Assembly: GCA_030683705.1 (NCBI GenBank) | Contig: JAUXPP010000167.1 | Coordinates: 1-64,000, forward strand | DNA length: 64,000 nucleotides | Source of the DNA: Polaromonas sp. | Lineage (GTDB): Bacteria > Pseudomonadota > Gammaproteobacteria > Burkholderiales > Burkholderiaceae_C | Direction: 5' to 3' | Shown: positions 7,739 to 31,775 of the stretch, in pieces | How positions within the stretch are numbered: position 1 is the first letter of the stretch | Layout of the letters: the number at the start of each line of letters is the position of its first letter | The notes under the pieces: model-generated | Told to the model about the DNA's origin: nothing | What the model saw: only the letters and a program-made list of their open reading frames with translations | Database searches by the model: none | Position numbers and translations under genes: made by a program

Positions 7739-7901
7739 GGCGTAGCGAGCGGGATGCAGTGTGTCCGCTCAATAGCCGTCACCAGGGCGTAGCGAGCGGG
7801 ATGAGCTGCAAGGCGGACGGAGCGGACCCACCGGAACGTACTTCAGGTACGTGAGGATGGGGAGCACCGGACCAACGCCGCAGATCGCCCGCGCAGTAGC
7901 C
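7739..7901 (-). repeat. 3'-UTR hairpin repeat, copy A (with a partial duplicate)
   Basis: The full unit is about 7783-7901. A partial duplicate of its GTAGCGAGCGGGATG end lies at 7739-7755. The central hairpin is ACGTAC-TTCAG-GTACGT (7836-7852), flanked by CCGGA and GAGGAT. The end nearest the thiolase gene reads GCAGTAGC, a few nt beyond its stop at 7908. The same layout recurs at 9659-9776 and 31660-31775. Strand is given as that of the adjacent gene's transcript. Confidence 0.8.
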
Positions 7902-7907
7902 CCGCCG

Positions 7908-9107
7908 TCAGACTCGTTCGAAGATGCCGGCGGCGCCTTGTCCCATGCCGACACACATCGTCACCATCCCGTACTTCAGCTGGTGCCGGTGCAAGGCATG
8001 GATCACCGTGGCGGCGCGGATCGCCCCGGTCGCGCCCAGCGGATGGCCCAGCGCAATCGCGCCACCCATCGGGTTCACTTTCGCCGCATTCAGTCCCAGC
8101 GTGTTGATCACCGCCAGCGATTGCGCGGCAAAGGCCTCATTCAGTTCATACCAGTCGATGTCGTCCTGCTGCAAGTCGGCATAACGCAGGGCGGCGGGAA
8201 TCGCCTCGATCGGGCCTATGCCCATGATGTGCGGCGGCACACCCTTGGCCGCGTAACTGACAAAACGCGCGAGCGGCTTCAAGCCATGTTCCTTGACCGC
8301 CTTCTCGCTGGCCAGGATCAGTGCGCCGGCGCCGTCCGAGGTTTGCGAGCTGTTGCCGGCCGTGACCGAACCGCGCGCGGCAAACACCGTCTTGAGTTTG
8401 GCCAGTCCTTCGAGCGAGGTGTCGGGGCGCGGACCTTCGTCCAGGCTCACGGTGCGGGTTGTGGCGATCACCTCACCGCTGTCCAGGTCCGGCGAGCGGT
8501 CGGTGACTTCAACCGGCGTGATCTCGGCCGTGAATTCGCCATCCTTTTGTGCCTTCATCGCCTTCTGGTGCGACTCGAGCGCAAACTGGTCCTGGGCGTC
8601 GCGCGAGACCTTCCACTGCTGTGCCACTTTTTCGGCGGTCAGCCCCATGCCGTAGGCAATGCCGATGTTTTCATCGTTGCCGAACATGGCTGGCGACAGC
8701 GAAGGCGAATTGCCCGACATCGGCACCATGCTCATGCTTTCGGTGCCGGCGGCAATCATCACATCGGCTTCACCCACGCGGATGCAGTCGGCCGCCATCT
8801 GGATGGCCGAAAGGCCGGACGCGCAGAAGCGGTTCACGGTGATGCCACCGACACTCGTCGGCAGTCCGGCCAGCACCGCGCCTATGCGCGCGATGTTCAG
8901 GCCTTGCGGACCTTCGGGAATGGCGCAGCCACAGATGATGTCCTCGATGGCTCTCGGGTCCAGCGTCGGCACCTGTGCCAGCGCGGCCTGCAGTGCGCGC
9001 ACCAGCAGGTCGTCGGGACGGGTGTTGCGGAAAAAACCGCGGTGCGAACGCCCGATGGGTGTGCGCGTGGCGGCAACGATGTAGGCTTCCTGGACTTGTT
9101 TGGCCAT
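7908..9107 (-). CDS. Thiolase (acetyl-CoA acyltransferase)
   Basis: A 399-aa thiolase that cleaves 3-ketoacyl-CoA with CoA, or condenses two acyl-CoAs. The nucleophilic Cys lies in VNRFCASGLSAIQ (Cys about 95), the GHP motif in GGAIALGHPLGATGAI (His about 355) and the second Cys in VTMCVGMGQGAA (about 385). All catalytic residues are present and length is typical. The start MAKQVQEAYIVAATRTPIG fits the family. With the bifunctional gene at 9780-12194 and the acyl-CoA dehydrogenase it completes a beta-oxidation spiral. It is followed by repeat copy A. FadA-like in role; the exact orthologue is not assigned. Confidence 0.93.
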   Translation of the reverse strand: MAKQVQEAYIVAATRTPIGRSHRGFFRNTRPDDLLVRALQAALAQVPTLDPRAIEDIICGCAIPEGPQGLNIARIGAVLAGLPTSVGGITVNRFCASGLSAIQMAADCIRVGEADVMIAAGTESMSMVPMSGNSPSLSPAMFGNDENIGIAYGMGLTAEKVAQQWKVSRDAQDQFALESHQKAMKAQKDGEFTAEITPVEVTDRSPDLDSGEVIATTRTVSLDEGPRPDTSLEGLAKLKTVFAARGSVTAGNSSQTSDGAGALILASEKAVKEHGLKPLARFVSYAAKGVPPHIMGIGPIEAIPAALRYADLQQDDIDWYELNEAFAAQSLAVINTLGLNAAKVNPMGGAIALGHPLGATGAIRAATVIHALHRHQLKYGMVTMCVGMGQGAAGIFERV

Positions 9108-9127
9108 GATGTTTTTCCTTAAATTCT

Positions 9128-9637
9128 TTAACTTTTTCGCGGGCCGGACGGAATCCAGGCCCAGACAAATTCACATTCGACCGGGCTCACGCCGGCCTCG
9201 TCCGTCACGGTGACCGCTACGCTGACTTCACCCTTGTCGCTGGCCTGCATGGCCGCGCGCTGCTCATCGCTGAGCGTCGCCACGGCGCGCAGCGCACCGG
9301 TTGCGCGTTTCCTGAACGCCATCTTGAGTTCCTTGGCCAGCGGAATGCAGTCGTCACGCACGTTCATGCCCACCACCATGCCGGTGGCGGTCTCCGCCAG
9401 CAAATTCATCGCCGAAGCGTGGATGCCACCGATGTGGTTCTGCACCTTCTTTTCGTTCTTGAGGCCGATCTCGACGCGGCGCGTCGTCATTTCCAGAAAA
9501 TCCAGTCCCGCCGTTCCGGTGAAAGGCACGGCACGATGCATCACGACACCCCGGAAGAAAGTGCGCGCAAAAGCCGGCACATCCGACAGGCGGTTCAGCT
9601 GACGTTCAAGGCGATTGGGGGAATGGTCGGTGGTCAT
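9128..9637 (-). CDS. Hotdog-fold DUF4442/PaaI-like thioesterase
   Basis: A 169-aa single-hotdog protein. The segment GGIHASAMNLLAETATGMVVGMNV (about residues 69-92) is the characteristic helix, with the Asn-Leu-xx-Glu positions used for catalysis in PaaI/DUF4442 thioesterases. It lies 20 nt upstream of the thiolase and is preceded by repeat copy B. A housekeeping acyl-CoA thioesterase role in the beta-oxidation block is inferred. The ATG at 9637 is the only reasonable start. Confidence 0.82.
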   Translation of the reverse strand: MTTDHSPNRLERQLNRLSDVPAFARTFFRGVVMHRAVPFTGTAGLDFLEMTTRRVEIGLKNEKKVQNHIGGIHASAMNLLAETATGMVVGMNVRDDCIPLAKELKMAFRKRATGALRAVATLSDEQRAAMQASDKGEVSVAVTVTDEAGVSPVECEFVWAWIPSGPRKS

Positions 9638-9658
9638 AGCGATAGGTTCGTGATTGAG

Positions 9659-9776
9659 AAAGCGTAGCGAGGAGGCATCAGGCGAGGCGCGGGCGCCCGA
9701 AGAAAACCGGAGCGACCTTCAGGGTCGTGAGGATTTTCTTTGGGCTGCAACGACGCATGGCGATTCCGCAGTAGCT
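9659..9776 (-). repeat. 3'-UTR hairpin repeat, copy B
   Basis: It begins AAAGCGTAGCGAG and ends GCAGTAGC 4 nt from the stop of the bifunctional dehydrogenase gene. The central hairpin is GCGACC-TTCAG-GGTCGT (9712-9728, one G-T wobble), again between CCGGA and GAGGAT. The stem sequence differs from copies A and C but pairing is kept. Confidence 0.8.
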
Positions 9777-9779
9777 TGA

Positions 9780-12194
9780 TCAGTTACGCAGAGGTTTGCC
9801 CGTGCTCATCATCCCCATGATCCGCTCCTGCGTTTTGGGGTGTTCCAGCAGCGAACAAAAGGCCTTGCGCTCCAGCGTCATCAGATACTCTTCGGTCACC
9901 AGCGAGCCCGCATCGACATCGCCGCCGCAGACCACGTTGGCGATCAGGCTGGCGATGTGGAAGTCGTGGGCGCTGATAAAACCGCCGTCGCGCATGTTGA
10001 CCAGCTGGCCCTTGATGGTCGCCAGGCCGCTGCGGCCCACAACCGGGAACGGCCGCTTGTGCGGCGCGCGGTAACCTGAGTTGAACAAGGCGCGTGCCTC
10101 GTTCAGTGCCACATACAAGAGCTCATCCTTGTTCGGCACGATCACGTCGCTGTCGAGCAGGTAACCGATCTTGCGGCTTTCAATCGCGCTGGTGCCCACC
10201 TTGGCCATGGCCGCGGCAGTGAAACCCTCGGTCAGGAAAGGCAACACGTCCTTGTTGGTGGAGGTCGCGGCATTTTCAGCTGCGCGGCGCGCGATATAGG
10301 TCAGGCCACCGGCGCCGGGCACCAGGCCCACACCGACTTCGACCAGGCCGATGTAACTTTCCATGGCCGCCACACGTTTGGCCGAATACACCGCGAGTTC
10401 ACAGCCACCGCCCAGGGCGAGGCCGCGAACCGCCGACACCACCGGCACGGACGCATAACGCAGCTTGAGCATCACGTTTTGCATCTCGGCCTCGGCACCT
10501 TCGACGGCCGACACACCGGCCATCATGAAGGCGGGCAGCATGGCCTGCAGGTCGGCGCCGGCCGAGAACATCTCGTCGTTCGACCAGATCACCAGGCCCT
10601 TGTAACTTTTCTCGGCTAGGTCCACCGCCATCGCCAGGCCCTCGACCACGTCGGGGCTGATGGCGTGCATCTTGGTCTTGATGCTGGCGATCACCACGTC
10701 GCCCTGCTCACCGTCCAGCGTCCAGAGGCGGATCGCGTCGTCTTCATGCAGCGTGGTGCCGGCCGTGGTGAAGGAAGGCGCCTTGGCACCCAGCACGTTT
10801 TCGGGGAAGAACTGGCGCTGGTACACCGGCAATTCGCGGCGCGCGATGAACTTGCCGGCCGAAGCGCTCCACGAGCCTTCCGGCGTATGCACACCACCGG
10901 CGTCGGCCACCGGGCCGGTGAACACCCAGCCGGGCAGCGGCGCAGAGCTAATGGCTTTGCCCGCATCAATATCTTCCTTGATCCAGTTCGCCACCTGCAG
11001 CCAGCCGGCTTCCTGCCAGAGCTCGAACGGCCCCTGCTTGGCGCCGAAGCCCCAGCGCATCGCAAAGTCGATGTCGCGCGCGGTCTCGGCAATCGTCGCC
11101 AGGTGCACAGCGGCATAGTGGAACTGGTCGCGCAGGATGGCCCAAAGGAAACGCGGCTCGGCGCCCTCGGCTTCGCGCAGCAGCTTCAGGCGTTCGCCGG
11201 CAGGCTTCTTGAGCATGCGGCCGACCACCTCATTGGCCTTGGCGCCACCGGGCACGTACTCCATCGACTCCGGGTCCAGACGCAGGATGTCGCGGCCGAC
11301 CTTCTTGTAAAAACCGGCGCCGGATTTCTGGCCCAGGCTTTTGCTTTCCAGCAGTTTGGCCAGCACCGCCGGCGTGCCATACATGTCCGAGAACGGGTCT
11401 TCGGTCTTGCCGGGGCCCAGGTTGTCCTGCAGCGTTTTGATCACATGCGCCATGGTGTCCAGGCCGACCACGTCGGCGGTGCGGAAGGTGCCGGAACTGG
11501 CACGGCCCAGCTTCTTGCCGGTCAGGTCATCCACCACGTCGTAGCTCAGGCCGAAGTTGTCGGCTTCCTTGATGGTGGCGAGCATGCCGGCGATACCGAC
11601 GCGGTTCGCGACGAAGTTGGGCGTGTCGTGCGCGCGGATCACGCCCTTGCCCAGGCCGCTGGTCACAAAGGCTTCGAGGTCGTCCAGCACTTTGGGCTCG
11701 GTGGTCGGCGTGTTGATCAGCTCGACCAGCGTCATGTAACGCGGCGGGTTGAAGAAATGGATGCCGCAAAAGCGCGGCTTGATCGATTCGGGCAAGGCTT
11801 CGCTGAGCGTGGTGATCGACAGGCCGGAGGTGTTGCTGGCGACGATGGCGCCTTCACCGATAAAAGGCGCGATCTTGTGGTACAGGTCGGTCTTCCAGTC
11901 CATGCGTTCGGCGATCGCCTCGATGACCAGGTCGCACTCCTTCAGGACATCCATGTGTTCTTCGTAGTTGGCCTGCTGGATCAGCGCGGCATCTTCCGGC
12001 ACGCCGAGCGGTGCGGGTTTGAGTTTTTTCAGGCCCTCGACAGCCCTGGTGACGATGCCGTTTTTCGGGCCCTCTTTCGCCGGCAGATCGAACAGGACGA
12101 CCGGCACCTTGAGGTTGACCAGATGGGCGGCGATCTGCGCGCCCATCACACCGGCGCCGAGCACGGCGACTTTCTTGACTTGGAAGCGGGACAT
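9780..12194 (-). CDS. Bifunctional 3-hydroxyacyl-CoA dehydrogenase/enoyl-CoA hydratase
   Basis: An 804-aa beta-oxidation enzyme. The NAD-binding 3-hydroxyacyl-CoA dehydrogenase domain is N-terminal (VAVLGAGVMGAQIAAHLVN, about 9-27). The 3HCDH C-terminal helices follow (FVANRVGIAG, about 190), then a second dehydrogenase-type segment, and a crotonase domain at the C-terminus (NDEMFSAGADLQAML and ALGGGCELAVYSAKR, about 540-610). This order is FadN-like and the reverse of E. coli FadB. It converts enoyl-CoA to 3-ketoacyl-CoA for the neighbouring thiolase. The first crotonase oxyanion motif is intact. Repeat copy B follows its stop and the DUF2147 gene precedes it. Confidence 0.92.
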   Translation of the reverse strand: MSRFQVKKVAVLGAGVMGAQIAAHLVNLKVPVVLFDLPAKEGPKNGIVTRAVEGLKKLKPAPLGVPEDAALIQQANYEEHMDVLKECDLVIEAIAERMDWKTDLYHKIAPFIGEGAIVASNTSGLSITTLSEALPESIKPRFCGIHFFNPPRYMTLVELINTPTTEPKVLDDLEAFVTSGLGKGVIRAHDTPNFVANRVGIAGMLATIKEADNFGLSYDVVDDLTGKKLGRASSGTFRTADVVGLDTMAHVIKTLQDNLGPGKTEDPFSDMYGTPAVLAKLLESKSLGQKSGAGFYKKVGRDILRLDPESMEYVPGGAKANEVVGRMLKKPAGERLKLLREAEGAEPRFLWAILRDQFHYAAVHLATIAETARDIDFAMRWGFGAKQGPFELWQEAGWLQVANWIKEDIDAGKAISSAPLPGWVFTGPVADAGGVHTPEGSWSASAGKFIARRELPVYQRQFFPENVLGAKAPSFTTAGTTLHEDDAIRLWTLDGEQGDVVIASIKTKMHAISPDVVEGLAMAVDLAEKSYKGLVIWSNDEMFSAGADLQAMLPAFMMAGVSAVEGAEAEMQNVMLKLRYASVPVVSAVRGLALGGGCELAVYSAKRVAAMESYIGLVEVGVGLVPGAGGLTYIARRAAENAATSTNKDVLPFLTEGFTAAAMAKVGTSAIESRKIGYLLDSDVIVPNKDELLYVALNEARALFNSGYRAPHKRPFPVVGRSGLATIKGQLVNMRDGGFISAHDFHIASLIANVVCGGDVDAGSLVTEEYLMTLERKAFCSLLEHPKTQERIMGMMSTGKPLRN

Positions 12195-12297
12195 CTGTTT
12201 CGTTCCTTATTGATTGCTTATCTTGTTTCGTTGCGCGTATCAAATCCCGGCCCGGTGGCAGCGGCTACACACGGTGTGTCGCAGGCGGGTGTGCCAT

Positions 12298-12732
12298 CTA
12301 CTGAATGCGAACCCAGGTCTGGGTGCGACCGAAGGGGCCGAAGGAGCCGCGCACCTCCAGCTTTTTGCCGCCCTCAACAGGCGTCATGCGCAGGGTGTAG
12401 TTGCGGCCGTTCTCCGGATCAAGAATCTTGCCGCCTTCCCACACCTCTTTACCCTCGGCCTTTTTGGCGCCGCGGATGATCTCCAGGCCGACAACGGGTT
12501 TGTCCTTGCGGTCGTCGCTGCACTGGTCGCAAACATCGTCGGGCTTGACGTCCTTGCCCAGGCGCTTTTCTATCCTGCCGCTGAGCACACCGCCGGCCTC
12601 GACAATCCGGATCTCGGCTTTCGCCTCCCCGGTCTTGTCATCCACGTTGCGCCACAGGCCCACCGGGCTGATCTGGGCAAAGCCGGAGACCGAGGTTGCT
12701 CCCAAAATAATAGCTAGTAGCGCACGGTACAT
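12298..12732 (-). CDS. DUF2147 secreted protein
   Basis: A 144-aa protein with a Sec-type signal peptide (MYRALLAIILGATSVSGFAQ; cleavage likely after GFA). The DUF2147 beta-barrel signature follows: SPVGLWRNVDDKTGEAKAEI, a CDQC pair (about 67-70), DPENGRNYTLRM and the terminal VRGSFGPFGRTQTWVRI. It is presumably periplasmic. It sits between the acyl-CoA dehydrogenase and the bifunctional beta-oxidation gene, where DUF2147 genes often occur in Burkholderiales; the role is unknown. The signal-peptide coding sequence contains mini-repeat copy c, which supplies part of the hydrophobic core. Confidence 0.88.
   Translation of the reverse strand: MYRALLAIILGATSVSGFAQISPVGLWRNVDDKTGEAKAEIRIVEAGGVLSGRIEKRLGKDVKPDDVCDQCSDDRKDKPVVGLEIIRGAKKAEGKEVWEGGKILDPENGRNYTLRMTPVEGGKKLEVRGSFGPFGRTQTWVRIQ
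12703..12725 (+). repeat. Mini-repeat copy c, inside a signal-peptide coding region
   Basis: CAAAATAATAGCTAGTAGCGCAC matches the family core with a small change and encodes, on the opposite strand, the RALLAIIL part of the DUF2147 signal peptide. Confidence 0.5.
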
Positions 12733-12778
12733 AGGGGCTCCGGTGCAAAAAGGCTTGAAGCTTGCGGCAATCCGGCCA

Positions 12779-14575
12779 TCAGGCCAGCGCGGCGTCGGTG
12801 TCCATCAACGCGGCACTGCCGCTGCGCGCGGTGCGCATCAGCGTCGCGGTTTCGGGGAACAGCTTGGCGAAGTAAAAACGCGCGGTCTGCAGCTTGGCCT
12901 GGTAGAAAGGATCGGTGTTGCCGGCGGCCACCTCGCGCAGCGCCACCTGCGCCATGCGGGCCCAGAAGTAACCGAACACCAGGTGGCCGGCCACGCGCAA
13001 ATAGTCCACCGCGGCGGCGCCTACTTCGTCCGGGTTCTGGAAACCCTTGAAACCGAGTTCGGTGGTGAACTTGGTCATCTGGTCAGCCAGGTAGGCCAGC
13101 GGGTTGATGAACTCGGCCATCTTCTCGTTGACGCCTTCCTCGGCGATCAGCGCAGCAATGATCTTGCCGAACTTCTTGAGGGTGGCGCCGTTGTTGCCCA
13201 GCACCTTGCGGCCCAGCAGGTCCAGCGACTGGACCGTGTTGGTGCCTTCATAAATCATGTTGATGCGGTTGTCGCGCACGAACTGCTCCATGCCCCATTC
13301 CTTGATGAAGCCGTGGCCGCCGAAAACCTGCATGCAGGCGTTGGTGGCGATGTGGCCGTTGTCGGTCAGGAAGGCCTTGACGATGGGCGTCAGCAACGCG
13401 ACGATTTCAGCCGAGTCCTTGCGCACCTTCTCGTCGGGGTGATGGATTTCCTTGTCGAGCAACAGCGTGCAGTAGATCGCCAGCGCGCGGCCGCCTTCGG
13501 CATAGGCCTTGGCCGTCAGCAGCATCTTGCGCACGTCGGGGTGCACGATGATCGGGTCTGCCGGCTTGTCCTTGGCTTTCACGCCCGACAGGCTGCGCAT
13601 CTGGATGCGGTCCTTGGCGTAGGCCAGCGCGTTCTGGAAGGCCACTTCGGTCAGGCCCAGCGACTGGTTGCCCACGCCCAGACGGGCGGCGTTCATCATC
13701 ACGAACATCGCAGCAAGGCCCTTGTTGGGCTGGCCGACCAGGCTGCCGCTGGCGCCGTCCATGACGATCTGGGCGGTGGCGTTGCCGTGGATGCCCATCT
13801 TGTGTTCCAGGCCGGAGCAGAAGATGCCGTTGCGATCGCCCAGCGAACCATCGGGCTTGACGTTGGATTTGGGCACCACAAACAGGCTGATGCCCTTGCT
13901 GCCCTGGGGTGCATCGGGCAGGCGGGCCAGCACCAGATGAACGATGTTGGCCGCCATGTCGTGTTCGCCGGCGCTGATGAAAATCTTGTTGCCGGTGAGT
14001 TTGTAGCTGCCGTCGGGCTGCGGCTCGGCCTTGGTGCGCAGCAAGCCCAGGTCGGTGCCGCAATGCGGTTCGGTCAGACACATGGTGCCGGTCCACTCAC
14101 CGCTGACCAGCTTGGGCAGGTAAGTCTTCTTCTGCTCGTCGGTGCCGTGCGCGTGCAAGGCCTCATAGGCGCCGTGGGACAGACCGGGATACATGGTCCA
14201 GGCCTGGTTGGCCGAATTCAGCATCTCGTACAGGCACTGGTTCAGCACAAACGGCAGGCCCTGGCCACCGTATTCGGGATCGCAGCTCAGCGCGGCCCAG
14301 CCGCCGGCGACATACTGCGCATACGCCTCCTTGAAGCCTCTGGGCGGCGTGACTTCATGGGTGGCCAGATCCAGCTTGCAGCCCTCGGTGTCACCGCTGA
14401 TGTTCAGGGGGAAAGTCACCTCGGCAGCAAACTTGCCGGCTTCTTCCAGCACCGCATTGATGGTGTCGGCATCCACCTCGGCATGTTTCGGCAGGGCCTT
14501 GAACTCGTCGGTGACATTCAGCACTTCGTGCATCACAAATTGCATGTCGCGCAGTGGTGGGGTGTATTGAGGCAT
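12779..14575 (-). CDS. Acyl-CoA dehydrogenase (long form with C-terminal extension)
   Basis: A 598-aa FAD-dependent dehydrogenase for the first beta-oxidation step. The N-terminal helical domain spans about 1-160 and the middle beta domain about 160-280 (MCLTEPHCGTDLGLLRTKA, TGNKIFISAGEHD). The C-terminal helical domain contains the FAD/dimer motif VFGGHGFIKEWGMEQFVRD and MIYEGTN. A further extension of about 120 residues is present, as in the DmdC/PA0506-like long acyl-CoA dehydrogenases. It is the first gene of the block below the TetR gene, 23 nt after its stop, so it is probably co-transcribed with and controlled by that regulator. Substrate chain length is not predictable. Confidence 0.92.
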   Translation of the reverse strand: MPQYTPPLRDMQFVMHEVLNVTDEFKALPKHAEVDADTINAVLEEAGKFAAEVTFPLNISGDTEGCKLDLATHEVTPPRGFKEAYAQYVAGGWAALSCDPEYGGQGLPFVLNQCLYEMLNSANQAWTMYPGLSHGAYEALHAHGTDEQKKTYLPKLVSGEWTGTMCLTEPHCGTDLGLLRTKAEPQPDGSYKLTGNKIFISAGEHDMAANIVHLVLARLPDAPQGSKGISLFVVPKSNVKPDGSLGDRNGIFCSGLEHKMGIHGNATAQIVMDGASGSLVGQPNKGLAAMFVMMNAARLGVGNQSLGLTEVAFQNALAYAKDRIQMRSLSGVKAKDKPADPIIVHPDVRKMLLTAKAYAEGGRALAIYCTLLLDKEIHHPDEKVRKDSAEIVALLTPIVKAFLTDNGHIATNACMQVFGGHGFIKEWGMEQFVRDNRINMIYEGTNTVQSLDLLGRKVLGNNGATLKKFGKIIAALIAEEGVNEKMAEFINPLAYLADQMTKFTTELGFKGFQNPDEVGAAAVDYLRVAGHLVFGYFWARMAQVALREVAAGNTDPFYQAKLQTARFYFAKLFPETATLMRTARSGSAALMDTDAALA

Positions 14576-14598
14576 GGATGCGTCCTTTTTGGGGAAAA

Positions 14599-15309: not shown

Positions 15310-15337
15310 GGAATGAGGATGGAAGGGCCATAAAAAC

Positions 15338-15349
15338 GAACGATCGTTC
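15338..15349. promoter_or_regulatory. Palindromic TetR operator candidate
   Basis: GAACGATCGTTC is a perfect 12-bp palindrome in an A/T-rich context, 29 nt upstream of the TetR gene. Palindromes of the form ACGAACGATCGTTCGT are typical TetR-family operators in fatty-acid regulons. Confidence 0.75.
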
Positions 15350-15448
15350 TATTTTGCCGCAAAACCGCGTCCGTCAAGCCATGATGGAAAAAAACCCGGG
15401 TTTTATAGGGAGTCAGGCCTAAGGCCGTCAAGGGTAAACACCAAGCCC

Positions 15449-22264: not shown

Positions 22265-22350
22265 GCCTCCCCCCAGGGGGCGACACCAGCGGCCCGGCAT
22301 AGCCGGTTCCGCGGTGTCCTGATCCACAGAGAGTCACTTGCAGGCACACC

Positions 22351-22926: not shown

Positions 22927-22935
22927 CAAGATCCC

Positions 22936-24330: not shown

Positions 24331-24344
24331 TCGCAGGTGTTCCC

Positions 24345-25871
24345 ATGACCCCCTTTATCCGACTCCATCCCGCCGACGATGTGCTGATCGCGCGTGCCCA
24401 GCTGGTGGGCGGCGCGCAGGCTGAAAACGTCACCGTGCGCGGCCTGGTCCCGCCCGGCCACAAGGTCGCCACACGCGCCATCGCGGCCGGCGAGCCGGTG
24501 CGGCGCTACAACCAGATCATCGGTTTTGCCAGCCAGCCGATCGCGCCGGGTGAACATGTGCACACGCACAACCTGAACATGGGTCCGGACAAGGGCGACT
24601 TCGCGCGCGACTATGCCTTCGGCGCCGACGTCAAGCCGGCACCCACCCAACGCGAGGCGACCTTCATGGGTATCAAGCGCGCCGACGGCCGCGTCGCCAC
24701 GCGCAACTACATCGGTGTATTGACCAGCGTGAACTGCTCGGCCACTGCCGCACGCGCGATTGCCGATCATTTTTCGCGCCAGACCAACCCGGCGGCGTTG
24801 GCGGCGTTCCCGAATGTCGACGGCGTCGTCGCGCTGACGCATGGCACCGGCTGCGGCATGGACGACAAGGGCATGGGCATGCAGATTCTGGAGCGCACGC
24901 TGACCGGCTACGCCACCCATGCCAATTTCGCCGCGGTGCTGGTGGTTGGCCTGGGCTGCGAGGCCAACCAGATCAATGCCTGGCTGGCGCACAGCGCGCT
25001 GCGCGAAGGCGACAACTTCCGTGTCTTCAACATCCAGGACACCGGCGGCACGCGCAAGACGGTGGACAAAGGCATAGCCCTGATCAACGAGATGCTGCCG
25101 CGCGCCAACGCCGTGAAGCGTGAGCCCTGCAGCGCTTCCCACATCACCATCGGCCTGCAGTGCGGCGGCTCCGACGGTTATTCGGGCATCAGCGCCAATC
25201 CGGCGCTGGGCGCGGCGGTCGACCTGCTGGTGGCGCACGGCGGCACCGCCATCCTGTCGGAGACGCCCGAGGTCTACGGCGCCGAACATCTGCTGACACG
25301 CCGCGCCGTCAAACGCGAGGTCGGCGAAAAACTGGTCGAACGCATCAAGTGGTGGGAGCACTACACCGCCATCAATGGCGGCGAGATGAACAACAACCCC
25401 TCGCCCGGCAACAAGGCCGGCGGCCTGACCACCATCCTCGAAAAGTCGCTGGGCGCAGTGGCCAAGGGCGGCACCAGCAACCTCGAGGCGGTGTACGAAT
25501 ACGCCGAGACTGTGGGCGCACACGGCTTTGTCTACATGGACACGCCGGGCTACGACCCGGTCAGCGCCACCGGCCAGGTCGCCGGCGGCGCCAACCTGAT
25601 CTGCTTCACCACCGGGCGCGGCTCGGCCTACGGCTGCGCGCCCTCGCCTTCGCTCAAGCTGGCGACCAACTCGGCGCTGTGGCGCAAGCAGGAAGAAGAC
25701 ATGGACATCAACTGCGGCGAGATCATCGACGGCGCCAGCACGGTGGCCGAGATGGGCCAGCGCATCTTCGAGCTGGTGTTGGCCACAGCCTCCGGCGAGA
25801 AAAGCAAAAGCGAGTCGCACGGTTATGGGCAAAACGAGTTTGTGCCCTGGCAGGTCGGCGCAGTGATGTAG
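24345..25871 (+). CDS. UxaA/GarD-family sugar-acid dehydratase
   Basis: A 508-aa altronate/galactarate dehydratase-family enzyme. An N-terminal SAF domain (about 1-95) precedes the catalytic GD_AH domain, with HGTGCGMDDKG, GLGCEANQI, GLQCGGSDGYSGI, SETPEVYGAE, NGGEMNNNPSPGNKAGG and a C-terminal MDINCGEIIDG. These enzymes dehydrate an aldonate or aldarate to a 2-keto-3-deoxy acid using iron. Combined SAF plus catalytic domains match full-length UxaA. The start at 24345 follows the dctM stop by 14 nt; a larger open frame beginning at 23022 is a shadow of dctM. Family members act on altronate, galactarate, L-fuconate and arabinonate, so the substrate is open. Confidence 0.92.
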   Translation: MTPFIRLHPADDVLIARAQLVGGAQAENVTVRGLVPPGHKVATRAIAAGEPVRRYNQIIGFASQPIAPGEHVHTHNLNMGPDKGDFARDYAFGADVKPAPTQREATFMGIKRADGRVATRNYIGVLTSVNCSATAARAIADHFSRQTNPAALAAFPNVDGVVALTHGTGCGMDDKGMGMQILERTLTGYATHANFAAVLVVGLGCEANQINAWLAHSALREGDNFRVFNIQDTGGTRKTVDKGIALINEMLPRANAVKREPCSASHITIGLQCGGSDGYSGISANPALGAAVDLLVAHGGTAILSETPEVYGAEHLLTRRAVKREVGEKLVERIKWWEHYTAINGGEMNNNPSPGNKAGGLTTILEKSLGAVAKGGTSNLEAVYEYAETVGAHGFVYMDTPGYDPVSATGQVAGGANLICFTTGRGSAYGCAPSPSLKLATNSALWRKQEEDMDINCGEIIDGASTVAEMGQRIFELVLATASGEKSKSESHGYGQNEFVPWQVGAVM

Positions 25872-25889
25872 TTGATGCATGCACCCGAC

Positions 25890-25979
25890 TGTCATTGCGG
25901 GCTCGACCCGCAATCCATGCGGGCACACGGACAGCGGCGGTCTGTGTGACATGGATCCCGGATCAAGTCCGGGATGACA
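25890..25979. repeat. Palindromic repeat unit with TGTCAT/ATGACA ends
   Basis: The unit begins TGTCATTGCGGGC and ends GTCCGGGATGACA. It contains two internal hairpins: GCGGG-CTCGA-CCCGC (25897-25911) and CCCGG-ATCAAGT-CCGGG (25957-25973). It occupies the gap between the dehydratase and the Ldh2-type gene. Units ending CCGGGATGACA are common intergenic palindromes in several proteobacteria. It may act as a terminator-like or mRNA-end structure. Confidence 0.7.
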
Positions 25980-26016
25980 TATAAACGCAGCCATCCCGAT
26001 AAACAGCACTTTTTAT

Positions 26017-27081
26017 ATGCAAAAAACCTTTCAAGCGGCCGCCCTGCAAGCGCAAGTAGCTACTGTTTTAATAGCATCTGGCAGCACCCGGGAGGAAGCT
26101 GACACCGTCGCTTCCAACCTGGTTTTTGCCAACCTGAGCGGCCACGACTCGCACGGCGTCGGCATGGTGCCGCGTTATGTGGACGCGGTGCTCGAGGGCG
26201 GCTTGATCCCCAACAACAGCCTGCGTGTGCTGCTGGACAGCGGTTCGCTGCTCACGCTGGACGGCCAGCGCGGTTACGGCCAGGTGGTCGGCCAGCAGGC
26301 CATGGCGCTGGGCATGGAACGCGCGAAAACCCACGGCAGCTGCATCGTGACCCTGGCCAACGCCCACCACCTGGGCCGCATCGGCCACTTTGCCGAAATG
26401 GCGGTGGCGCAAGGCCTGGTTTCGCTGCACTTCGTCAATGTGTTGTCGCGGCCCGTGGTCGCGCCTTTCGGCGGCGCCGACGGGCGTTACGGCACCAACC
26501 CCTGTTGCATCGGCATCCCGCTCCGGGGACGTGAACCCTTCATCCTCGACTTCGCCACCAGCCGCGTGGCGCAGGGCAAGATGCGGGTGGCCCACAACCA
26601 GGGCCAGCAGGTAGCACCCGGCATGCTGATCGACGAGTTCGGCCGCCCCACCACCAACCCCGGCGTCGTCGTGGTGCCGCAAAGCAACGGCCTGTTCGGC
26701 GCGCTGATGGCGTTTGGTGAACACAAGGGTTACGGCATGGCGGTGGCCTGCGAGCTGCTGGGCGGCGCGCTGACCGGCAGCGGCACCGCGCACAAACCGG
26801 CCGACCCGGCGATCCGCGCCGTCGTCAACGGCATGCTGACCATCCTGATCGATCCGGCCAAACTCGGCACCCAGGCCAGCTTCGAGCAGGAGGCCTTGGC
26901 CTTTGCGGACTGGCTCCAGGCCGCGCCGGCCGCACCCGGCACCGACGCGGTGCTCATTGCCGGTGACCCGGAACGCGCCAAACGCCTGCAACGCCAGCAC
27001 AGCGGCATAGAGGTCGACAGCGAGACCTGGCGGGAAATTGTGGCCGCCGGCCGCAAGGTCGGGGTGTCGCTGCCGGACTGA
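26017..27081 (+). CDS. Ldh2-family malate/lactate-type dehydrogenase
   Basis: A 354-aa NAD(P)-dependent oxidoreductase of the malate/L-lactate/ureidoglycolate dehydrogenase (Ldh2) family, unrelated to classical LDH. Motifs are FANLSGHDSHGVGMVPRYV, the catalytic His in IVTLANAHHLGRIGHFAE (about 117-134), GTNPCCIGIPLRGREPFILD and GEHKGYGMAVACELL. It probably oxidises or reduces a 2-hydroxy/2-keto acid in the sugar-acid pathway, for example a hydroxy-acid product of the FAH-type hydrolase. Mini-repeat copy e lies in its 5' coding region and encodes AQVATVLIAS, so the repeat has been absorbed into the protein. Confidence 0.9.
   Translation: MQKTFQAAALQAQVATVLIASGSTREEADTVASNLVFANLSGHDSHGVGMVPRYVDAVLEGGLIPNNSLRVLLDSGSLLTLDGQRGYGQVVGQQAMALGMERAKTHGSCIVTLANAHHLGRIGHFAEMAVAQGLVSLHFVNVLSRPVVAPFGGADGRYGTNPCCIGIPLRGREPFILDFATSRVAQGKMRVAHNQGQQVAPGMLIDEFGRPTTNPGVVVVPQSNGLFGALMAFGEHKGYGMAVACELLGGALTGSGTAHKPADPAIRAVVNGMLTILIDPAKLGTQASFEQEALAFADWLQAAPAAPGTDAVLIAGDPERAKRLQRQHSGIEVDSETWREIVAAGRKVGVSLPD
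26051..26077 (-). repeat. Mini-repeat copy e (inverted), within coding sequence
   Basis: The reverse complement of 26051-26077 contains AACAGTAGCTACTTGCG, the family core. It is read through in frame by the Ldh2-type gene. Confidence 0.55.
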
Positions 27082-27100
27082 CAGGCTGCCGCTTTCATCA

Positions 27101-27128
27101 CTATGAAATTGATAGCTGCTCACGCTTG
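27101..27128 (+). repeat. Mini-repeat copy f
   Basis: CTATGAAATTGATAGCTGCTCACGCTTG (split across 27101-27128) has the complete A/T half plus core. It is intergenic, 23 nt before the TTG start of the next gene. Copy g lies in the opposite orientation just after that gene. Confidence 0.65.
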
Positions 27129-27151
27129 TCAATACTGAGCTGGAAGCCAAA

Positions 27152-28609
27152 TTGACCATCAATTCCGCGCTTGAACCAGCCTTGCTGAACAACGCTGGTC
27201 TGACCGCCATCGCCAGCCGCGGCGTCACCGTCCCGTCCTATGTCCGCAGCGGCGCGCCCGGCGTGGTGCACCTGGGGCTGGGCGCCTTCCACCGCGCCCA
27301 CCAGGCGCTGGTGTTCGACCGGCTGCTGCAGCGCGGCGACACGCGCTGGGGCGTGTTCGGCGTGGCCATGCGCAACAGCGCGCTGGCCGACAGCCTGCGG
27401 GCGCAAGACGGCCTCTACGCGGTGCAGGTGGCCAGCAGCGCCGGCTGCCAGTGGCAGGTCGGCGGCGCGATCTGGCAAACCGCCGTCGCCGCACGCGAGC
27501 CGGCGCAGGTCATCGCCGCGATCGCCGCGCCGGCCACCCGCTGGCTCACGTTGACCGTCACCGAAAAAGGCTACGTCCCCGAACTGGGCCGCTTGATCGC
27601 GTCGGGCCTGGCGGCGCGGCAGGCGGCTGGCCTGCCCGGCCTGACCATCGCGTCCTGCGACAACCTGGTGGGCAACGGCCGGCAATTGCAGGCCCTGTGT
27701 GTGGCGGCCGCGCGGCAGCTGAGCCCTGCGCTGGCGCACTGGGTAGCCGGCAAATGCGCCTTTCCCAACAGCATGGTGGACCGCATCGTGCCTGCTGCCA
27801 CGCCGCAGCGCCTGGCCGCGGCGCGCGAAGCCCTGGGCGTGGCCGACGAAGCCGCGCTGGGGACCGAGGCGTTCTGGGAATGGGTGATCGAGCGGCGTTT
27901 TGTCGAGGCGGGTGACGCCGGTGTGCTGGCGGCCGCGGGCGTGACCGTGGTCGACGATGTGGCACCGTTCGAGGACGCCAAGCTGCGCCTGCTCAACGGC
28001 AGCCACACCGTCATGGCTTGTCTGGGCGCGGTCGCCGGCTGGCCGGTGATTGGCGAATGCATCACCCAGCCGGCCGTACGCAGCTTCATCCATGGCCTGA
28101 TGACGCAGGAGGTCGGCCCGCAACTGGCGCGCCCGGACTGGCCGGCTTACCGCGACGCCCTGCTGGCGCGTTTTGCCAACCCGGCGCTGCAGCACAGCGT
28201 GCACCAGATCGCCACCGATTCCTCGCAGAAAATCCCGCAGCGCTGGCCGCCCTCGGTGCTGGGCGCGCTGCGCGCCGGCCTGCCGGTAGACCGCCTGGCC
28301 TTTGCCGCCGCGGCCTGGATGCGCTATCTGCGCGGCAGCGACGAGTCGGGCCGGGCCTATGCCATGAACGATCCGATGGCCAGCCAGCTGCAGGCGCTGG
28401 CCCTGGCGCATGCCGGTGATGCCGCCGCCAGTGTGCAGGCGCTGGGCAGCTTGCCGGCGATCTGGGGGGAGGTCTTGCCCAGGGATCAGCGCTGGCTGGC
28501 GCTCGTCACCCGCAGCCTGGATGCCATCGACGGTCTGGGGGTACTGGCGGCGCTGGAGCGCTTGCAGGCCGGGCCGGACGGTGAGTCCGGACCTGTCCCG
28601 GATTCATGA
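27152..28609 (+). CDS. Mannitol dehydrogenase-family oxidoreductase (fructuronate reductase-like)
   Basis: A 485-aa polyol/uronate dehydrogenase of the long-chain mannitol dehydrogenase family. Motifs: HLGLGAFHRAHQALV (about 35-49, NAD binding), TVTEKGYV, FPNSMVDRIVP (about 207-217), KLRLLNGSHTVMA with the catalytic Lys/Asn/His group, and DSSQKIPQR. Candidate reactions are fructuronate to mannonate, tagaturonate to altronate (which would feed the UxaA-type dehydratase) or mannitol oxidation. No ATG suits the N-terminus; the start is a TTG at 27152 preceded by GGAAG. The gene is bracketed by inverted mini-repeats f and g. Ends PDS-stop before a convergent slmA. Confidence 0.88.
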   Translation: MTINSALEPALLNNAGLTAIASRGVTVPSYVRSGAPGVVHLGLGAFHRAHQALVFDRLLQRGDTRWGVFGVAMRNSALADSLRAQDGLYAVQVASSAGCQWQVGGAIWQTAVAAREPAQVIAAIAAPATRWLTLTVTEKGYVPELGRLIASGLAARQAAGLPGLTIASCDNLVGNGRQLQALCVAAARQLSPALAHWVAGKCAFPNSMVDRIVPAATPQRLAAAREALGVADEAALGTEAFWEWVIERRFVEAGDAGVLAAAGVTVVDDVAPFEDAKLRLLNGSHTVMACLGAVAGWPVIGECITQPAVRSFIHGLMTQEVGPQLARPDWPAYRDALLARFANPALQHSVHQIATDSSQKIPQRWPPSVLGALRAGLPVDRLAFAAAAWMRYLRGSDESGRAYAMNDPMASQLQALALAHAGDAAASVQALGSLPAIWGEVLPRDQRWLALVTRSLDAIDGLGVLAALERLQAGPDGESGPVPDS

Positions 28610-28636
28610 AGCAAATCAGCCTGCAGCGCACGGCTG

Positions 28637-28668
28637 GCAAGCGTCAGCAGCTCCTGTTTTTATATCAT
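28637..28668 (-). repeat. Mini-repeat copy g (inverted)
   Basis: The reverse complement begins AATGATATAAAAACAGGAGC and continues with GCTGACGCTTGC, matching the family. It lies between the convergent mannitol-dehydrogenase-type gene and slmA. Confidence 0.6.
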
Positions 28669-28669
28669 T

Positions 28670-28684
28670 CCGGCGCCGCGCCGG
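28670..28684. terminator. Hairpin between convergent genes
   Basis: CCGGCG-CCG-CGCCGG is a perfect 6-bp GC stem placed directly at the slmA stop, between two convergent genes. On the minus strand it is followed by A-rich rather than T-rich sequence, so it is at best a weak bidirectional terminator. Confidence 0.4.
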
Positions 28685-29236
28685 TCAGCCCAGCAACATG
28701 CCCAGGCTGGCGTCCAGATGTTCGGACGGCAGGCGCTTGAAGCCCGAGCGTGAAAATCGCTGCAGCCGGCCCATCATGAAAGCCACGATGACCGAGGCCT
28801 GGACCTGGGCCTGCACCGTCGGCATGGCCGCGCCCTCGGAGGCCGCGCCTTCGCGCAGACTTTGCTTGAGGCTGGCTTCGAGCTTGTCGAAAAACTGGTT
28901 CATGCGTTCCTGCAGGCGATCGTTTTCAAACACCAGGGCGTCGCCGGCCATGACACGCGTCATGCCGGGATTTTTCTCGGCGAACTGCAGCAGCATCATG
29001 ACCAGCTTGCGGGTGCGCACCGCCGGGTCGGTTTCGCGTTCGGTGATCTGGTTGACCAGGGTGAAGACGGTCTGCTCGATGAACTCGATCAGCCCCTCGA
29101 ACATCTGCGCCTTGCTGGCGAAGTGCCGGTACAAGGCTGCCTCGCTGACATCCAGCCGCGAAGCCAGTGCCGAGGTGGTGATGCGCTCCGCGCCGGGTTG
29201 CTCGAGCATGGTTGCCAGCGCCTGCAGGATCTGCAC
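28685..29236 (-). CDS. slmA: Nucleoid occlusion factor SlmA (TetR family), N-terminus interrupted by two amber codons
   Basis: A 183-aa readable part of SlmA, which binds DNA away from the terminus and blocks FtsZ assembly over the nucleoid. The HTH segment RLDVSEAALYRHFASKAQMFEGLIEFIEQ and the helical FtsZ-binding domain (EKNPGMTRVMAGDALVFENDRLQERMNQFF) are intact. The natural reading frame begins at an ATG at 29320 (MSEFESEV...) and is in frame with this ORF. It is stopped by TAG at codons 20 (29263-29261) and 23 (29254-29252), at positions where related proteins have Lys in KRPKPGERRVQILQ. Translation could restart at the GTG at 29236 (codon 29), which has only a weak ribosome-binding site. 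Alternatives are a pseudogene, amber suppression or sequence error. Confidence 0.85.
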   Translation of the reverse strand: MQILQALATMLEQPGAERITTSALASRLDVSEAALYRHFASKAQMFEGLIEFIEQTVFTLVNQITERETDPAVRTRKLVMMLLQFAEKNPGMTRVMAGDALVFENDRLQERMNQFFDKLEASLKQSLREGAASEGAAMPTVQAQVQASVIVAFMMGRLQRFSRSGFKRLPSEHLDASLGMLLG

Positions 29237-29320
29237 GCGGAGCTCGCCCGGCTAGGTCCGCTAGCGCGGCGCAGCGGCTGCGGGGAGCTCAGGGCTTACT
29301 TCAGACTCGAACTCGGACAT
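29237..29320 (-). pseudogene. slmA: Upstream in-frame segment of slmA containing two TAG codons
   Basis: Twenty-eight codons from the ATG at 29320 encode MSEFESEVSPELPAAAAPR, then TAG, R, T, TAG, PGELR, running in frame into the SlmA ORF. The residue pattern around the stops (R-x-R-x-x-P-G-E-x-R) matches the conserved SlmA lead segment, so this is coding sequence interrupted by stops rather than an untranslated leader. Confidence 0.7.
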
Positions 29321-29447
29321 AGGCGGCGTTGTAAGAGATGTTTCAAAAGCTAAAGACTGACTGGATTCTCTCACAGCTTATAAGGGCATCCTGAGCGCCG
29401 GCCAGAGGGGTGCGCCGGAGCGAAAAAGCCGGCCGCCGGGGGCAGTT

Positions 29448-30911
29448 TCAGCCCGTCAGCGGCATCACCAGCCGCACGCGCAGGCCGCCCTGCGCGCCGG
29501 CCGGCGCCAGCGCGAGTTGCGCGCCGTGCAGGCGCGCAATCTCGTCGGCAATCGCCAGACCCAGGCCGTTGCCCTCGCCGGCAGTCCCGGGCACGCGGTA
29601 AAAGCGTTCCAGCGCGCGCGCGTATTCGGCCACGGGGATGCCGGGTCCGTCGTCTTCCACCTCCAGAACCACCTGCGCCCGGCCGGTCACCGGGTCGTCC
29701 CGCTGGCCGCAACGCAAGGTCACGGTGCCGCCGGCCGGGGTGTACTTGACAGCGTTGTCCACCAGGTTGCTCACCAGTTCGCGCAACATCCATTCATGGC
29801 CGGCCACCTGGGCAAAGCCGGCGTCCAGCCCGAGGTCGATGTTTTTGGCGCTGGCGGCGTCCAGGTGCAGGGCCAGCACCGCTTCGCACAAATCCTTGAG
29901 GTCCACCCGCTGCCGCGGCTGGTTCGCCATGCTGGACGCATCGGCGCGCGACAGCGCCAGCAGCTGGTTGGCCAGCTGCGAGGTGCGCCGGGTGGCGCTG
30001 CGCAAGGCGGTGATTTTTCCGGCCGACAGCGTCAGTTGCCCGCCGGCGGCCGGTGCGCCCGCCGCCTGGGCCCAGGCTTCGACCTGGGCCTGCAGCCCGG
30101 CCAGCGGGGTGCGCAGCTGGTGCGCGGCATCGGCCACAAAGCGGCGCTGGCCCTCGGCCTGGTCGTTGACCAGCGCAAACAGCCGGTTCAGCGAGGCCAC
30201 CAGCGGCTGGACCTCGGCTGGCGTGCTGGCGGGATCGATGGCGCTGAGGTCGCGCGGTGAGCGGCGCTCGACCGCATCCTTCAGGTCCAGCAGCGGCCGC
30301 AGCGCGCGGGTGACCGCCCAGTTGACCGCAATGCCGGCCGCCAGCACCAGCACCAGGTTGGGCAACAAGACCTTGAACATCACCGAACGCACCCACTGCT
30401 GGCGCGCATCGGAGCCGTCGGCCAGTTGCAGGATCAGCTCGCCGGCGCCGGTCCGGGCGCGCTGCACCGCGATGCGGTAGGTCACGCCGTTTTCCTCCAT
30501 GCTGTGCAGTTCGGGCTCGCGGGTGGCCGGCACCACCACGCTGATCCAGCTCTCGCCGGCCAGGAAATTGCCGGCTTCGTCCGAGATCCGGTAGCCGGCA
30601 AAGCCGCTGTGCGCCTTGATGAATTCTTCCAGCGGCGGCGCCAGCAGCATCACCGGCGCGCCGCCCGGCGCGCCGGGTGCCAGCACCGAATCGGCCAGCA
30701 GCGGGATCAGCCGGGTGAGCTGCTGGTCCTGTTGCAGGGCGGCATTGCCGGCGGCCTGGTAATCGAAGTAAACACTGACCAGCGCAAACAGGCTCAGCGG
30801 CAGCAGCAGCAGCAGCAGCAACCGGCGCTGCAGGCCGGACGTCATGGCTGAGGGCAGGCGCGCGGGGAGAGCGGCTGGACGGTCAACGGAGGCGCCGGGG
30901 GGCGGGCTCAT
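29448..30911 (-). CDS. Sensor histidine kinase (QseC/TctE-like)
   Basis: A 487-aa membrane sensor kinase if started at the ATG at 30911; an ATG at 30845 (MTSGLQRRLL) directly before the first membrane segment is equally possible. TM1 is LLLLLLLPLSLFALVSVYF. A periplasmic loop of about 130 aa follows, then TM2 (VLLPNLVLVLAAGIAVNW), HAMP, the H-box RRFVADAAHQLRTPLAGLQ, the N-box LVSNLVDNAVKYTPAG and the G-box VEDDGPGIPVAE with GNGLGLAIADEI. It phosphorylates the upstream OmpR-type regulator; the genes are 28 nt apart. Ligand unknown. The pair is inserted between slmA and argB. Confidence 0.9.
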   Translation of the reverse strand: MSPPPGASVDRPAALPARLPSAMTSGLQRRLLLLLLLPLSLFALVSVYFDYQAAGNAALQQDQQLTRLIPLLADSVLAPGAPGGAPVMLLAPPLEEFIKAHSGFAGYRISDEAGNFLAGESWISVVVPATREPELHSMEENGVTYRIAVQRARTGAGELILQLADGSDARQQWVRSVMFKVLLPNLVLVLAAGIAVNWAVTRALRPLLDLKDAVERRSPRDLSAIDPASTPAEVQPLVASLNRLFALVNDQAEGQRRFVADAAHQLRTPLAGLQAQVEAWAQAAGAPAAGGQLTLSAGKITALRSATRRTSQLANQLLALSRADASSMANQPRQRVDLKDLCEAVLALHLDAASAKNIDLGLDAGFAQVAGHEWMLRELVSNLVDNAVKYTPAGGTVTLRCGQRDDPVTGRAQVVLEVEDDGPGIPVAEYARALERFYRVPGTAGEGNGLGLAIADEIARLHGAQLALAPAGAQGGLRVRLVMPLTG

Positions 30912-30939
30912 GGCGGCGCTCGAGAGGGCGTGTTGCGGC

Positions 30940-31626
30940 TCAGCCGCCGGCGGGCGCCGCATCCACCAGCTCCAGCCGGTAGCCGAAGCCGCGGATGGAA
31001 CGCAGGGCCACGCCGTGCGGCTCGAGTTTGCCGCGCAGGCGCGAGATATAGACCTCGATGGCGTTGGGCGTGATTTCCTTGTCCCAGCCGGTCAGCGCGG
31101 CCAGCAGTTTTTCCTTGCTGGCGGGCTTGGGGGCATGGATCAGCAGGTATTCCATCACCGTCCATTCGCGCGGGCCGAGCTCGATCAACTGGCCGTTGGC
31201 GCGCGCCTGGCGGTTCGCGGAATCGAGCTCCAGGCTGCCGAAACTCAGGATGGCGCTGGTCGCGGCCTGGGAACGGCGCAACAGCGCACGCAAGCGGGCC
31301 AGCAGTTCGGGCAGCTCGAAAGGCTTGACCATGTAGTCGTCGGCGCCCAGATCCAGCCCCTGCACCCTGTCCTCCAGCGCGTCGCGCGCAGTCAGGATCA
31401 GCACCGGCATCGCCAGGCCGCGGCCGCGCAGGCGCCGCGTGAGTTCGAGGCCATCGGTGCGCGGCAGGCCGATGTCGATGATGGCGGCATCAAAACTCTC
31501 GGCCAGCAGGACCTCCTCCGCACGCTCGGCGCTGCCGACCCAGTCCACCGCATAACCGGCGTCGCTGAGCCCCAGCTTGATGCCGCTGGCCAGCATGACA
31601 TCGTCTTCAACGAGGAGCAATCTCAT
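30940..31626 (-). CDS. OmpR-family response regulator (QseB/TctD-like)
   Basis: A 228-aa regulator. The receiver has MRLLLVEDDVMLASGIK, the phospho-acceptor Asp about 51 (AAIIDIGLPRTDGLEL), the switch Thr (LILTARD) and Lys (DDYMVKPFEL). The winged-helix DNA-binding domain (about 128-222) ends VEVYISRLRGKLEPHGV-like IEVYISRLRGKL and IRGFGYRLE. It is first in a two-gene operon with the sensor kinase. Repeat copy C separates it from argB, which could allow separate expression. Target genes are not evident here. Confidence 0.93.
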   Translation of the reverse strand: MRLLLVEDDVMLASGIKLGLSDAGYAVDWVGSAERAEEVLLAESFDAAIIDIGLPRTDGLELTRRLRGRGLAMPVLILTARDALEDRVQGLDLGADDYMVKPFELPELLARLRALLRRSQAATSAILSFGSLELDSANRQARANGQLIELGPREWTVMEYLLIHAPKPASKEKLLAALTGWDKEITPNAIEVYISRLRGKLEPHGVALRSIRGFGYRLELVDAAPAGG

Positions 31627-31659
31627 AAGGCCTCGATCAAGGTTGGAAAACGCGTTCAG

Positions 31660-31775
31660 GAAGCGTAGCGAGCGGCTGTCAGGCTAGGCGCACGGAGCGC
31701 AGCAACCGGAATGTGCTTGACGCACATGAGGATTGCGAGCACCGCGCAACGACGCATGGCAGACGCGCAGTAGCT
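31660..31775 (-). repeat. 3'-UTR hairpin repeat, copy C
   Basis: It begins GAAGCGTAGCGAGCGG and ends GCAGTAGC, 15 nt from the argB stop. The central hairpin is ATGTGC-TTGAC-GCACAT (31711-31727) between CCGGA and GAGGAT. Pairing is preserved with compensatory changes against copies A and B. Confidence 0.8.

Follow-up and report, generated by a model that had tools for sequence, protein, structure and literature searches.

The window analysed here, 64,000 nucleotides of a Polaromonas sp. contig (JAUXPP010000167.1, positions 1 to 64,000; assembly GCA_030683705.1), contains three related units at the ends of minus-strand genes. These units are copies of a dispersed element of about 145 bases that folds end to end into one hairpin. 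They are probably old copies of a non-autonomous transposable element of the miniature inverted-repeat transposable element (MITE) kind, which would be gene-free, ~145 bp long and bounded by terminal inverted repeats of 17–18 bp. The element differs from a plain MITE in that its interior is also self-complementary around conserved internal loops, such that a single strand forms one long hairpin. Insertion would take place at the trinucleotide TNA and would be carried out in trans by a transposase, probably one of an IS5-like group; such a group is recognized by its ends and by TNA target duplication. Since TAA and TGA both fit TNA, insertion at a stop codon would duplicate it and harm neither gene.

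Structure of the element

The genus has two types of element. Type A has GTAGCGAG and GCAGTAGC as its boundaries and GTAG at both ends, a tag not found at these places in other lineages, whereas type B has different inner flanks. Both share the core ACCGGA-stem-loop-stem-TGAGGAT, set inside further paired segments, and folding gives one long hairpin that takes in flanks beyond the unit. A covariance model of the 79-nt core (R1) was built from 26 copies; of 36 rows first aligned, ten were excluded, namely a duplicate that was misplaced and nine copies that were divergent or built differently. Of the cells in the 26-row core alignment, 98.6% are paired and 46 have changed on both sides; such two-sided changes involve 10 of 19 pairs, and each of five measures was unmatched in 500 shuffles (0/500). 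In the apical stem, for which 45 genus copies were retained only if at least four of six apical pairs were Watson–Crick, pairs 2–6 comprise 223 Watson–Crick, 0 wobble and 2 other cells (225 in total). At pairs 2 and 4, U-A and C-G replace each other freely, and pair 1 has eight G.T. Such wobble-free Watson–Crick swapping in pairs 2–6 seems unusual for an RNA helix.

A sequence-only reading of this stretch had described three units with shared flanking motifs, each containing a 6-bp stem and a loop, and direct reading of the sequence finds all of these at the positions assigned to them. The stems are ACGTAC/GTACGT, GCGACC/GGTCGT (with one G.T) and ATGTGC/GCACAT, and at pairs 2, 4 and 5 both sides change between the three copies. 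The 6-bp stem is thus present, but the region that actually pairs is the whole ~145-bp unit. Each unit lies just past the stop codon of a minus-strand gene (TCA on the plus strand at 7908, 9780 and 31790), identified by Pfam as a thiolase, a 3-hydroxyacyl-CoA dehydrogenase/enoyl-CoA hydratase and an amino acid kinase, the last consistent with argB. The gene-end position stands, with one correction: the stop codon falls at the margin of the outer stem or within it. The features are as follows.

7771..7916, minus strand (the strand of the gene upstream): type A element 1 with its outer arms, following the thiolase gene (sequence, R1 match).
7789..7898, plus strand: conserved body of element 1, GTAGCGAG to GCAGTA, with the CCGGA-stem-GAGGAT core (sequence, R1 match).
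9646..9791, minus strand: type A element 2, following the 3-hydroxyacyl-CoA dehydrogenase gene, the outer arm containing the stop codon (sequence, R1 match).
9664..9773, plus strand: conserved body of element 2 (sequence, R1 match).
9646..9663, plus strand: left outer arm of element 2, at the terminal inverted repeat position (sequence).
9774..9791, plus strand: right outer arm of element 2, overlapping the coding 3′ end and stop codon (sequence).
31647..31790, minus strand: type A element 3, after argB, the stop codon at the end of the outer arm (sequence, R1 match).
31665..31772, plus strand: conserved body of element 3 (sequence, R1 match).
31647..31664, plus strand: left outer arm of element 3 (sequence).
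31773..31790, plus strand: right outer arm of element 3, its final base within the argB stop codon (sequence).
7739..7760, plus strand: additional partial copy of the left end (AAGGCGTAGCGAGCGGGATGCA), adjoining element 1 (seen directly).

The cores of the copies at 7783, 9659 and 31660 score E=2.7e-16, 2.1e-5 and 1.3e-20 in a search of their own genome with R1, whose 26 training rows included the 7783 and 31660 copies and excluded the 9659 copy. Twelve of 18 outer-arm positions are Watson–Crick pairs in element 2 and 15 of 18 in element 3. An intrinsic terminator was rejected, as by eye no T run follows any of the three window hairpins on the gene strand. The partial left end at 7739–7760 looks as if a tandem copy next to element 1 had been lost; in Curvibacter sp. 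HBC28 (L175, 2795–3097), three tandem element copies with 137 bp spacing follow a thiolase gene.

Outer arms

Altogether, 177 core-bearing places (at least four of six apical pairs Watson–Crick) were collected, 80 of them with type A ends. The outermost 18 bp vary between copies and tend to remain complementary, and pairing stops there. In the flanks of the 80 type A copies, 8.8 of 17 positions pair, versus 4.6 when the flanks are taken from different copies, and 23 of the 80 lie above the 99th percentile of this mismatched-flank control. The 51 type A copies with at least 12 of 18 pairs show pairing of 0.73–1.0 at positions 1–17, except position 6 (0.39), then 0.59 at position 18 and 0.14–0.37 from position 19 outward, a contrast at 18/19 that is partly created by choosing the 51 on positions 1–18. 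Across all 80, pairing also declines, being 0.66, 0.52, 0.39 and 0.28 at positions 16 to 19. The outermost arms of type B copies likewise vary yet pair (for example L007, L013, L017, L033, L038, L039, L040, L041, L044, L046, L076, L077).

Empty and filled sites

The hemE-nfi junction is polymorphic in Escherichia coli. MG1655 has the empty site, CACCGC-TAA-GGAG, and strain N3 has CACCGC-TAA-[144 bp]-TAA-GGAG with the 18-bp inverted ends GAGCCTGGTCCATCAGGC and GCCTGGTGGACCAGGCTC. The two TAA flanking the N3 copy are the duplicated stop codon, and the 18-bp ends are terminal inverted repeats. At least 80% of the filled sequence is covered in 294 of 5370 matching E. coli genomes, and 18 of 20 listed rows of hemE-nfi matches are 147 bp shorter than the filled sequence. 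This comparison represents one site. The E. coli empty and filled stop-codon sites offer a natural experiment on the effect of a long hairpin at a stop codon.

Target duplication is also seen among other copies. Of 74 named copies, 16 have TNA direct repeats next to the arms, versus 1.7 expected from mismatched pairs; a search over a narrower range had given 9 of 124 versus 1.5, after which the range was widened. The same 74 copies have 21 three-base repeats of any kind versus 12.2 expected, and 17 four-base repeats versus 3.4, some of the latter being stem palindromes. Together with the terminal inverted repeats, the hemE-nfi site and the placement at stop codons described below, these duplications support the earlier suggestion of a mobile repeat aimed at gene ends. 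In Chlorobiaceae (L115, L132 and L144), the ends resemble GGGCACCTCT and there are apparent 4-bp target duplications, ATTA, TAAA and TTCA, which may point to a different transposase group.

Orthologous gene ends were sought in 15 genus genomes. Of 13 genomes in which the argB end was found, two have the element there (G000, which is the genome of the window, and G004). At the thiolase gene the count is 2 of 12 genomes (G000, G264), and at the dehydrogenase gene it is 3 of 11 (G000, G004, G264). Beyond the genus set, four named loci, chosen for carrying a copy, have the dehydrogenase element, and the groEL element occurs at the groEL of the window's genome and at two Rhodoferax groEL loci, all picked for carrying it. 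The Acidovorax locus L146 and the Curvibacter locus L175 have the dehydrogenase site without the element and the thiolase element in place. In the 11 genus genomes with the argB end but not the element, unrelated sequence follows the stop and no such hairpin is visible by eye.

The empty sites also bear on the idea that the element inserts into the loops of hairpins already present at gene ends, which would account for outer arms that vary per copy yet pair. No such hairpin exists at the empty hemE site, and none was seen at those 11 argB ends. Contradicted at the former and not seen at the latter, this explanation was rejected as very improbable.

Placement at stop codons

A stop codon lies between −5 and +12 nt of the outer end in gene-sense orientation in 68 of 127 copies and on the opposite strand in 5, a range picked after the distances were known. 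Open frames of at least 100 codons were used, the longer being taken where both strands had one, and some copies are orthologous, so that the counts are not fully independent. By set, gene-sense stops number 16 among 19 type A copies in the genus-centred set, 7 among 15 in the order set and 22 among 46 in the scan set, and 23 among the 47 other copies; opposite-strand stops number 0, 0, 2 and 3, respectively. The other copies are the 47 of 124 placed stems left once stems of at least 165 bp, and loci that contain a type A copy, were excluded, and their outer ends were defined by stem extension. At 1458 shifted control positions near type A copies, the frequency is 8.6% and 10.9% per 81-nt window, or about 2% when scaled to 18 nt. 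The genus-centred set forms two distance groups, −2 to −1 and +6 to +12, the latter corresponding to a stop within the arm. A loose coding-strand listing of 119 rows, many of them spurious, served as a lead only.

Type B copies in the genus behave less uniformly. In some, a gene-sense stop falls at −3 to −1 relative to the outer end; in others, it is a gene on the opposite strand that ends here, mostly 8–27 nt outside (one at 0). The orientation that the sequence-only reading saw in its three copies is strong in one direction across the family, but type B gene ends lie on either strand and some enteric copies are reversed or away from stops.

We infer that harmless insertion combined with a target preference would explain the stop-codon bias. 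Harmless insertion at TNA alone does not explain the orientation bias. If insertion rather than survival proves to set that bias, a transposition system with a preference for stop codons would be indicated.

Which strand folds

The strand assignment is based on the outer arms and on folding of the elements alone. The outer arms of 51 copies, read on the CCGGA strand, contain 51 G.T versus 19 A.C mismatches; copy by copy, 28 have more G.T and 9 more A.C (sign test, 0.0026). Folded as elements alone, the CCGGA strand is the more stable in 60 of 80 type A copies (p=9e-6). At the 68 stop-codon sites, it runs antisense to the gene. The mRNA strand forms a strong fold too at argB (−65.8 versus −71.6 kcal/mol for the CCGGA strand), and in element 1 it is slightly more stable (−64.2 versus −62.9 kcal/mol).

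Other counts are mixed. With 90-nt flanks, folding favours the CCGGA strand in 117 of 177 places, and the core alignment has 11 G.T versus 2 A.C. The whole-hairpin count, in which fixed internal mismatches are included, is 425 G.T versus 544 A.C and is against the strand reading or mixed. For the anchored core, the genus set has 11 G.T and 22 A.C, with some rows misaligned by one-base insertions; the order set, which was found with a model of that strand, has 11 G.T versus 3 A.C; and the scan set has 44 G.T versus 50 A.C with apical pair 1 excluded. At apical pair 1 the scan set has 50 G.T, the scan pattern having admitted only A-T or G.T there.

These results bear on the proposal, made by the sequence-only reading, that selection acts on a structured transcript end, the hairpin after the stop protecting the mRNA, terminating it or yielding a small RNA (sRNA) like sX9, an Rfam family. 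The structure is real, and the gene-sense placement at stop codons, the occurrence of copies after the same genes across genera (groEL, thiolase, 3-hydroxyacyl-CoA dehydrogenase), the covariation of the core alignment and the match of sX9 to half of the hairpin on the gene-sense strand all agree with the proposal. However, outer-arm wobble and folding energy favour the strand opposite the mRNA, which weakens the idea of a selected mRNA hairpin. The element is also present at the same site in few genus genomes (2/13, 2/12 and 3/11 for argB, thiolase and dehydrogenase), and copies exist between divergent genes and in opposite orientation. A structured 3′-end RNA under selection is thus an unlikely explanation of the family.

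Origin and maintenance of the pairing

Several observations weigh against reading the units as transposed copies. The outer arms in the genus differ per copy and can lie in conserved coding sequence, and those of element 1 pair poorly (8 of 18 Watson–Crick). Few copies of the genus and order sets have TNA duplications (3 of 48, 0.3 expected), and three-base repeats of any kind are not enriched there (7 versus 6.8). The E. coli copies at rlmKL-ycbX and pheM-pheS lie away from stop codons, and the enteric copies at malF and at an RND-permease gene are in opposite orientation. A narrow search for a partner transposase, covering the PF01609 family in three genomes, found none in the genome of the window, and the six PF01609 loci in two relatives lack matching ends. 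Finally, the conserved internal loops have no explained role. As a separate matter, the copy at pheM-pheS (L298, L299) separates the pheM attenuator leader from pheS inside a regulated operon.

Copy-specific arms within conserved coding sequence mean that simple insertion of fixed ends is not a sufficient explanation. At the dehydrogenase site the gene-side arm is, by eye, the coding end itself, and the opposite arm tracks some of its synonymous differences, for example CGC/GCG versus CGT/ACG, though not all positions pair. For some Burkholderiales copies, which follow the same gene in several genera with an arm overlapping the coding end, either selection or template switching in replication would have preserved the pairing.

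Taken as the whole explanation, DNA template switching at the palindrome would both make and maintain the pairing, and covariation would then be no evidence of a selected function. A template-switch mechanism is proposed for RNA stems in the available part of PMC8794818. The apical pairs 2–6, free of wobble despite their free swaps, and the outer arms that mirror coding sequence, synonymous differences between genera included, are as this mechanism would have them. Nevertheless, the internal loops remain by eye imperfect across lineages, though switching should erase them, the outer-arm wobble is present and strand-asymmetric, and pairing stops near 18 bp. As the complete account, we regard template switching as a possibility that falls well short of probable. 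Within the transposable-element reading, covariation may partly be produced by it. Covariation of this kind could mislead RNA-gene discovery, and any function of the element is something that we infer.

Family size and host range

Three copies were confirmed in the window, but the total in the same genome is 16–17. The argB unit as query gave 17 matches there at E<=0.01, and R1 gave 17 at E<=0.1 and 16 at E<=0.001, with 21 in the relative G004. This search, which the sequence-only reading had put forward as a check, was made here with a model from 26 copies, and the further copies do pair and are placed non-randomly. With R1, the core is found in 69 of 250 genomes (40 of 121 genera) of an order sample at E<=0.001 and in 60 of 397 genomes (42 of 232 genera) of a phylum sample at E<=1e-5, both under stricter filters, with which weak matches are lost. 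Of 5426 E. coli genomes, 5375 contain matches to the enteric form, with a median of 5 places each; such matches also occur in 132 plasmid-labelled records, of which at least one is as large as a chromosome. E. coli K-12 has a copy at qseE-qseG, and its derivative DH1 has the one at rlmKL-ycbX. The E. coli intergenic repeat RSA (152 bp; Rudd 1999), similar in size and copy number, may be the same repeat.

A pattern scan of named genomes gave at least 119 stretches. The matches listed include many Betaproteobacteria as well as Xanthomonas, Enterobacterales, Chlorobiaceae, Desulfobacula, Scalindua, Rickettsia, Vampirovibrio, Bacteroidales and Bacillus relatives; by a rough estimate a handful could be chance. 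Twenty loci were scored with R1, of which 16 reached E<=1e-6, three fell between 1.7e-6 and 0.0028, and the empty MG1655 locus had no match; as the other 19 were selected because they carried the core motif or resembled a locus that did, these scores are not independent. In Bacillus and Metabacillus (L116, L179), core-bearing copies adjoin rRNA operons and lie directly before the apparent 16S rRNA start, and in L140, of the same group, one with a weak R1 score (0.0028) follows 5S rRNA.

Relation to known repeats and to sX9

The element shares with repetitive extragenic palindromic (REP) sequences and the bacterial interspersed mosaic elements (BIMEs) built on them a palindrome, an intergenic place and a GTAG tag, and one could suppose that it is mobilized by a REP-associated tyrosine transposase (RAYT, a Y1 transposase). 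GTAG-tagged repeats are described in the available part of PMC3733652, and here GTAG stands at both ends of type A. The tag is confined to that type, however, other lineages lacking it there, and the unit of ~145 bp is longer than the 20–40 bp of REP/RAYT elements. By hand count, 38 of the 69 genomes that carry the element have Y1_Tnp, versus 111 of the 181 that lack it, and high-copy genomes such as G016, G032 and G033 are without a Y1_Tnp match. With no association across these 250 genomes, the RAYT partnership was rejected and has next to no likelihood.

Closer parallels are the MITEs ERIC, NEMIS/Correia and YPAL/RU-2, which in the available part of PMC2229807 are likewise 100–200 bp long, without a transposase gene, folded as a whole-unit hairpin and associated with target duplication; effects of long stem-loop bacterial MITEs on mRNA are proposed there. 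ERIC, NEMIS and YPAL were compared by description only, and the portions of the sources consulted describe none of them as oriented at stop codons. The host range of the present element is much wider than theirs. The string GAGGAT/ATCCTC is not found in the available text of PMC2759123, which prints RU sequences and covers RU-2 in part. A literature search that extended to few subscription journals yielded no description that we recognized of oriented stop-codon insertion or of sX9 joined to a transposable hairpin.

By comparison of the models' matches, sX9 (RF02228) is one half of the hairpin on the strand opposite CCGGA. Its 76-nt model spans only half of the hairpin present here, and sX9 is described as an sRNA, whereas the family here is a repeat with inverted ends. 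In a review table, which gives no expression, it appears among the top 20 most prevalent bacterial sRNAs (PMC9029176, available part), so that a widely annotated family would be tied to half of a mobile hairpin. A bolder reading is that a mobile element homes to stop codons across phyla in a preferred orientation, moves or acts as one folded antisense strand, uses its loops as a single-strand recognition code and has left much of the annotated sX9 as debris; we hold this to be improbable.

Two Xanthomonas loci contain sX9 matches of 95.5, 93.9 and 72.7 bits. The two higher ones (L150 718–793 and L159 7450–7525) overlap R1 matches on the other strand and extend from the apical loop outward to the outer end. 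At the gathering score there are 0 sX9 matches in the window, and three matches in five genus-set loci fall just under it. Eight Burkholderiales loci gave four matches at E<=0.01, one of them above the gathering score. A Comamonadaceae locus scores 48.8 bits and six other loci 37.4–43.8 bits; the 44-bit threshold is reached in Xanthomonas L150 and L159 and in L131, and the argB copy in L009 scores 37.7 bits.

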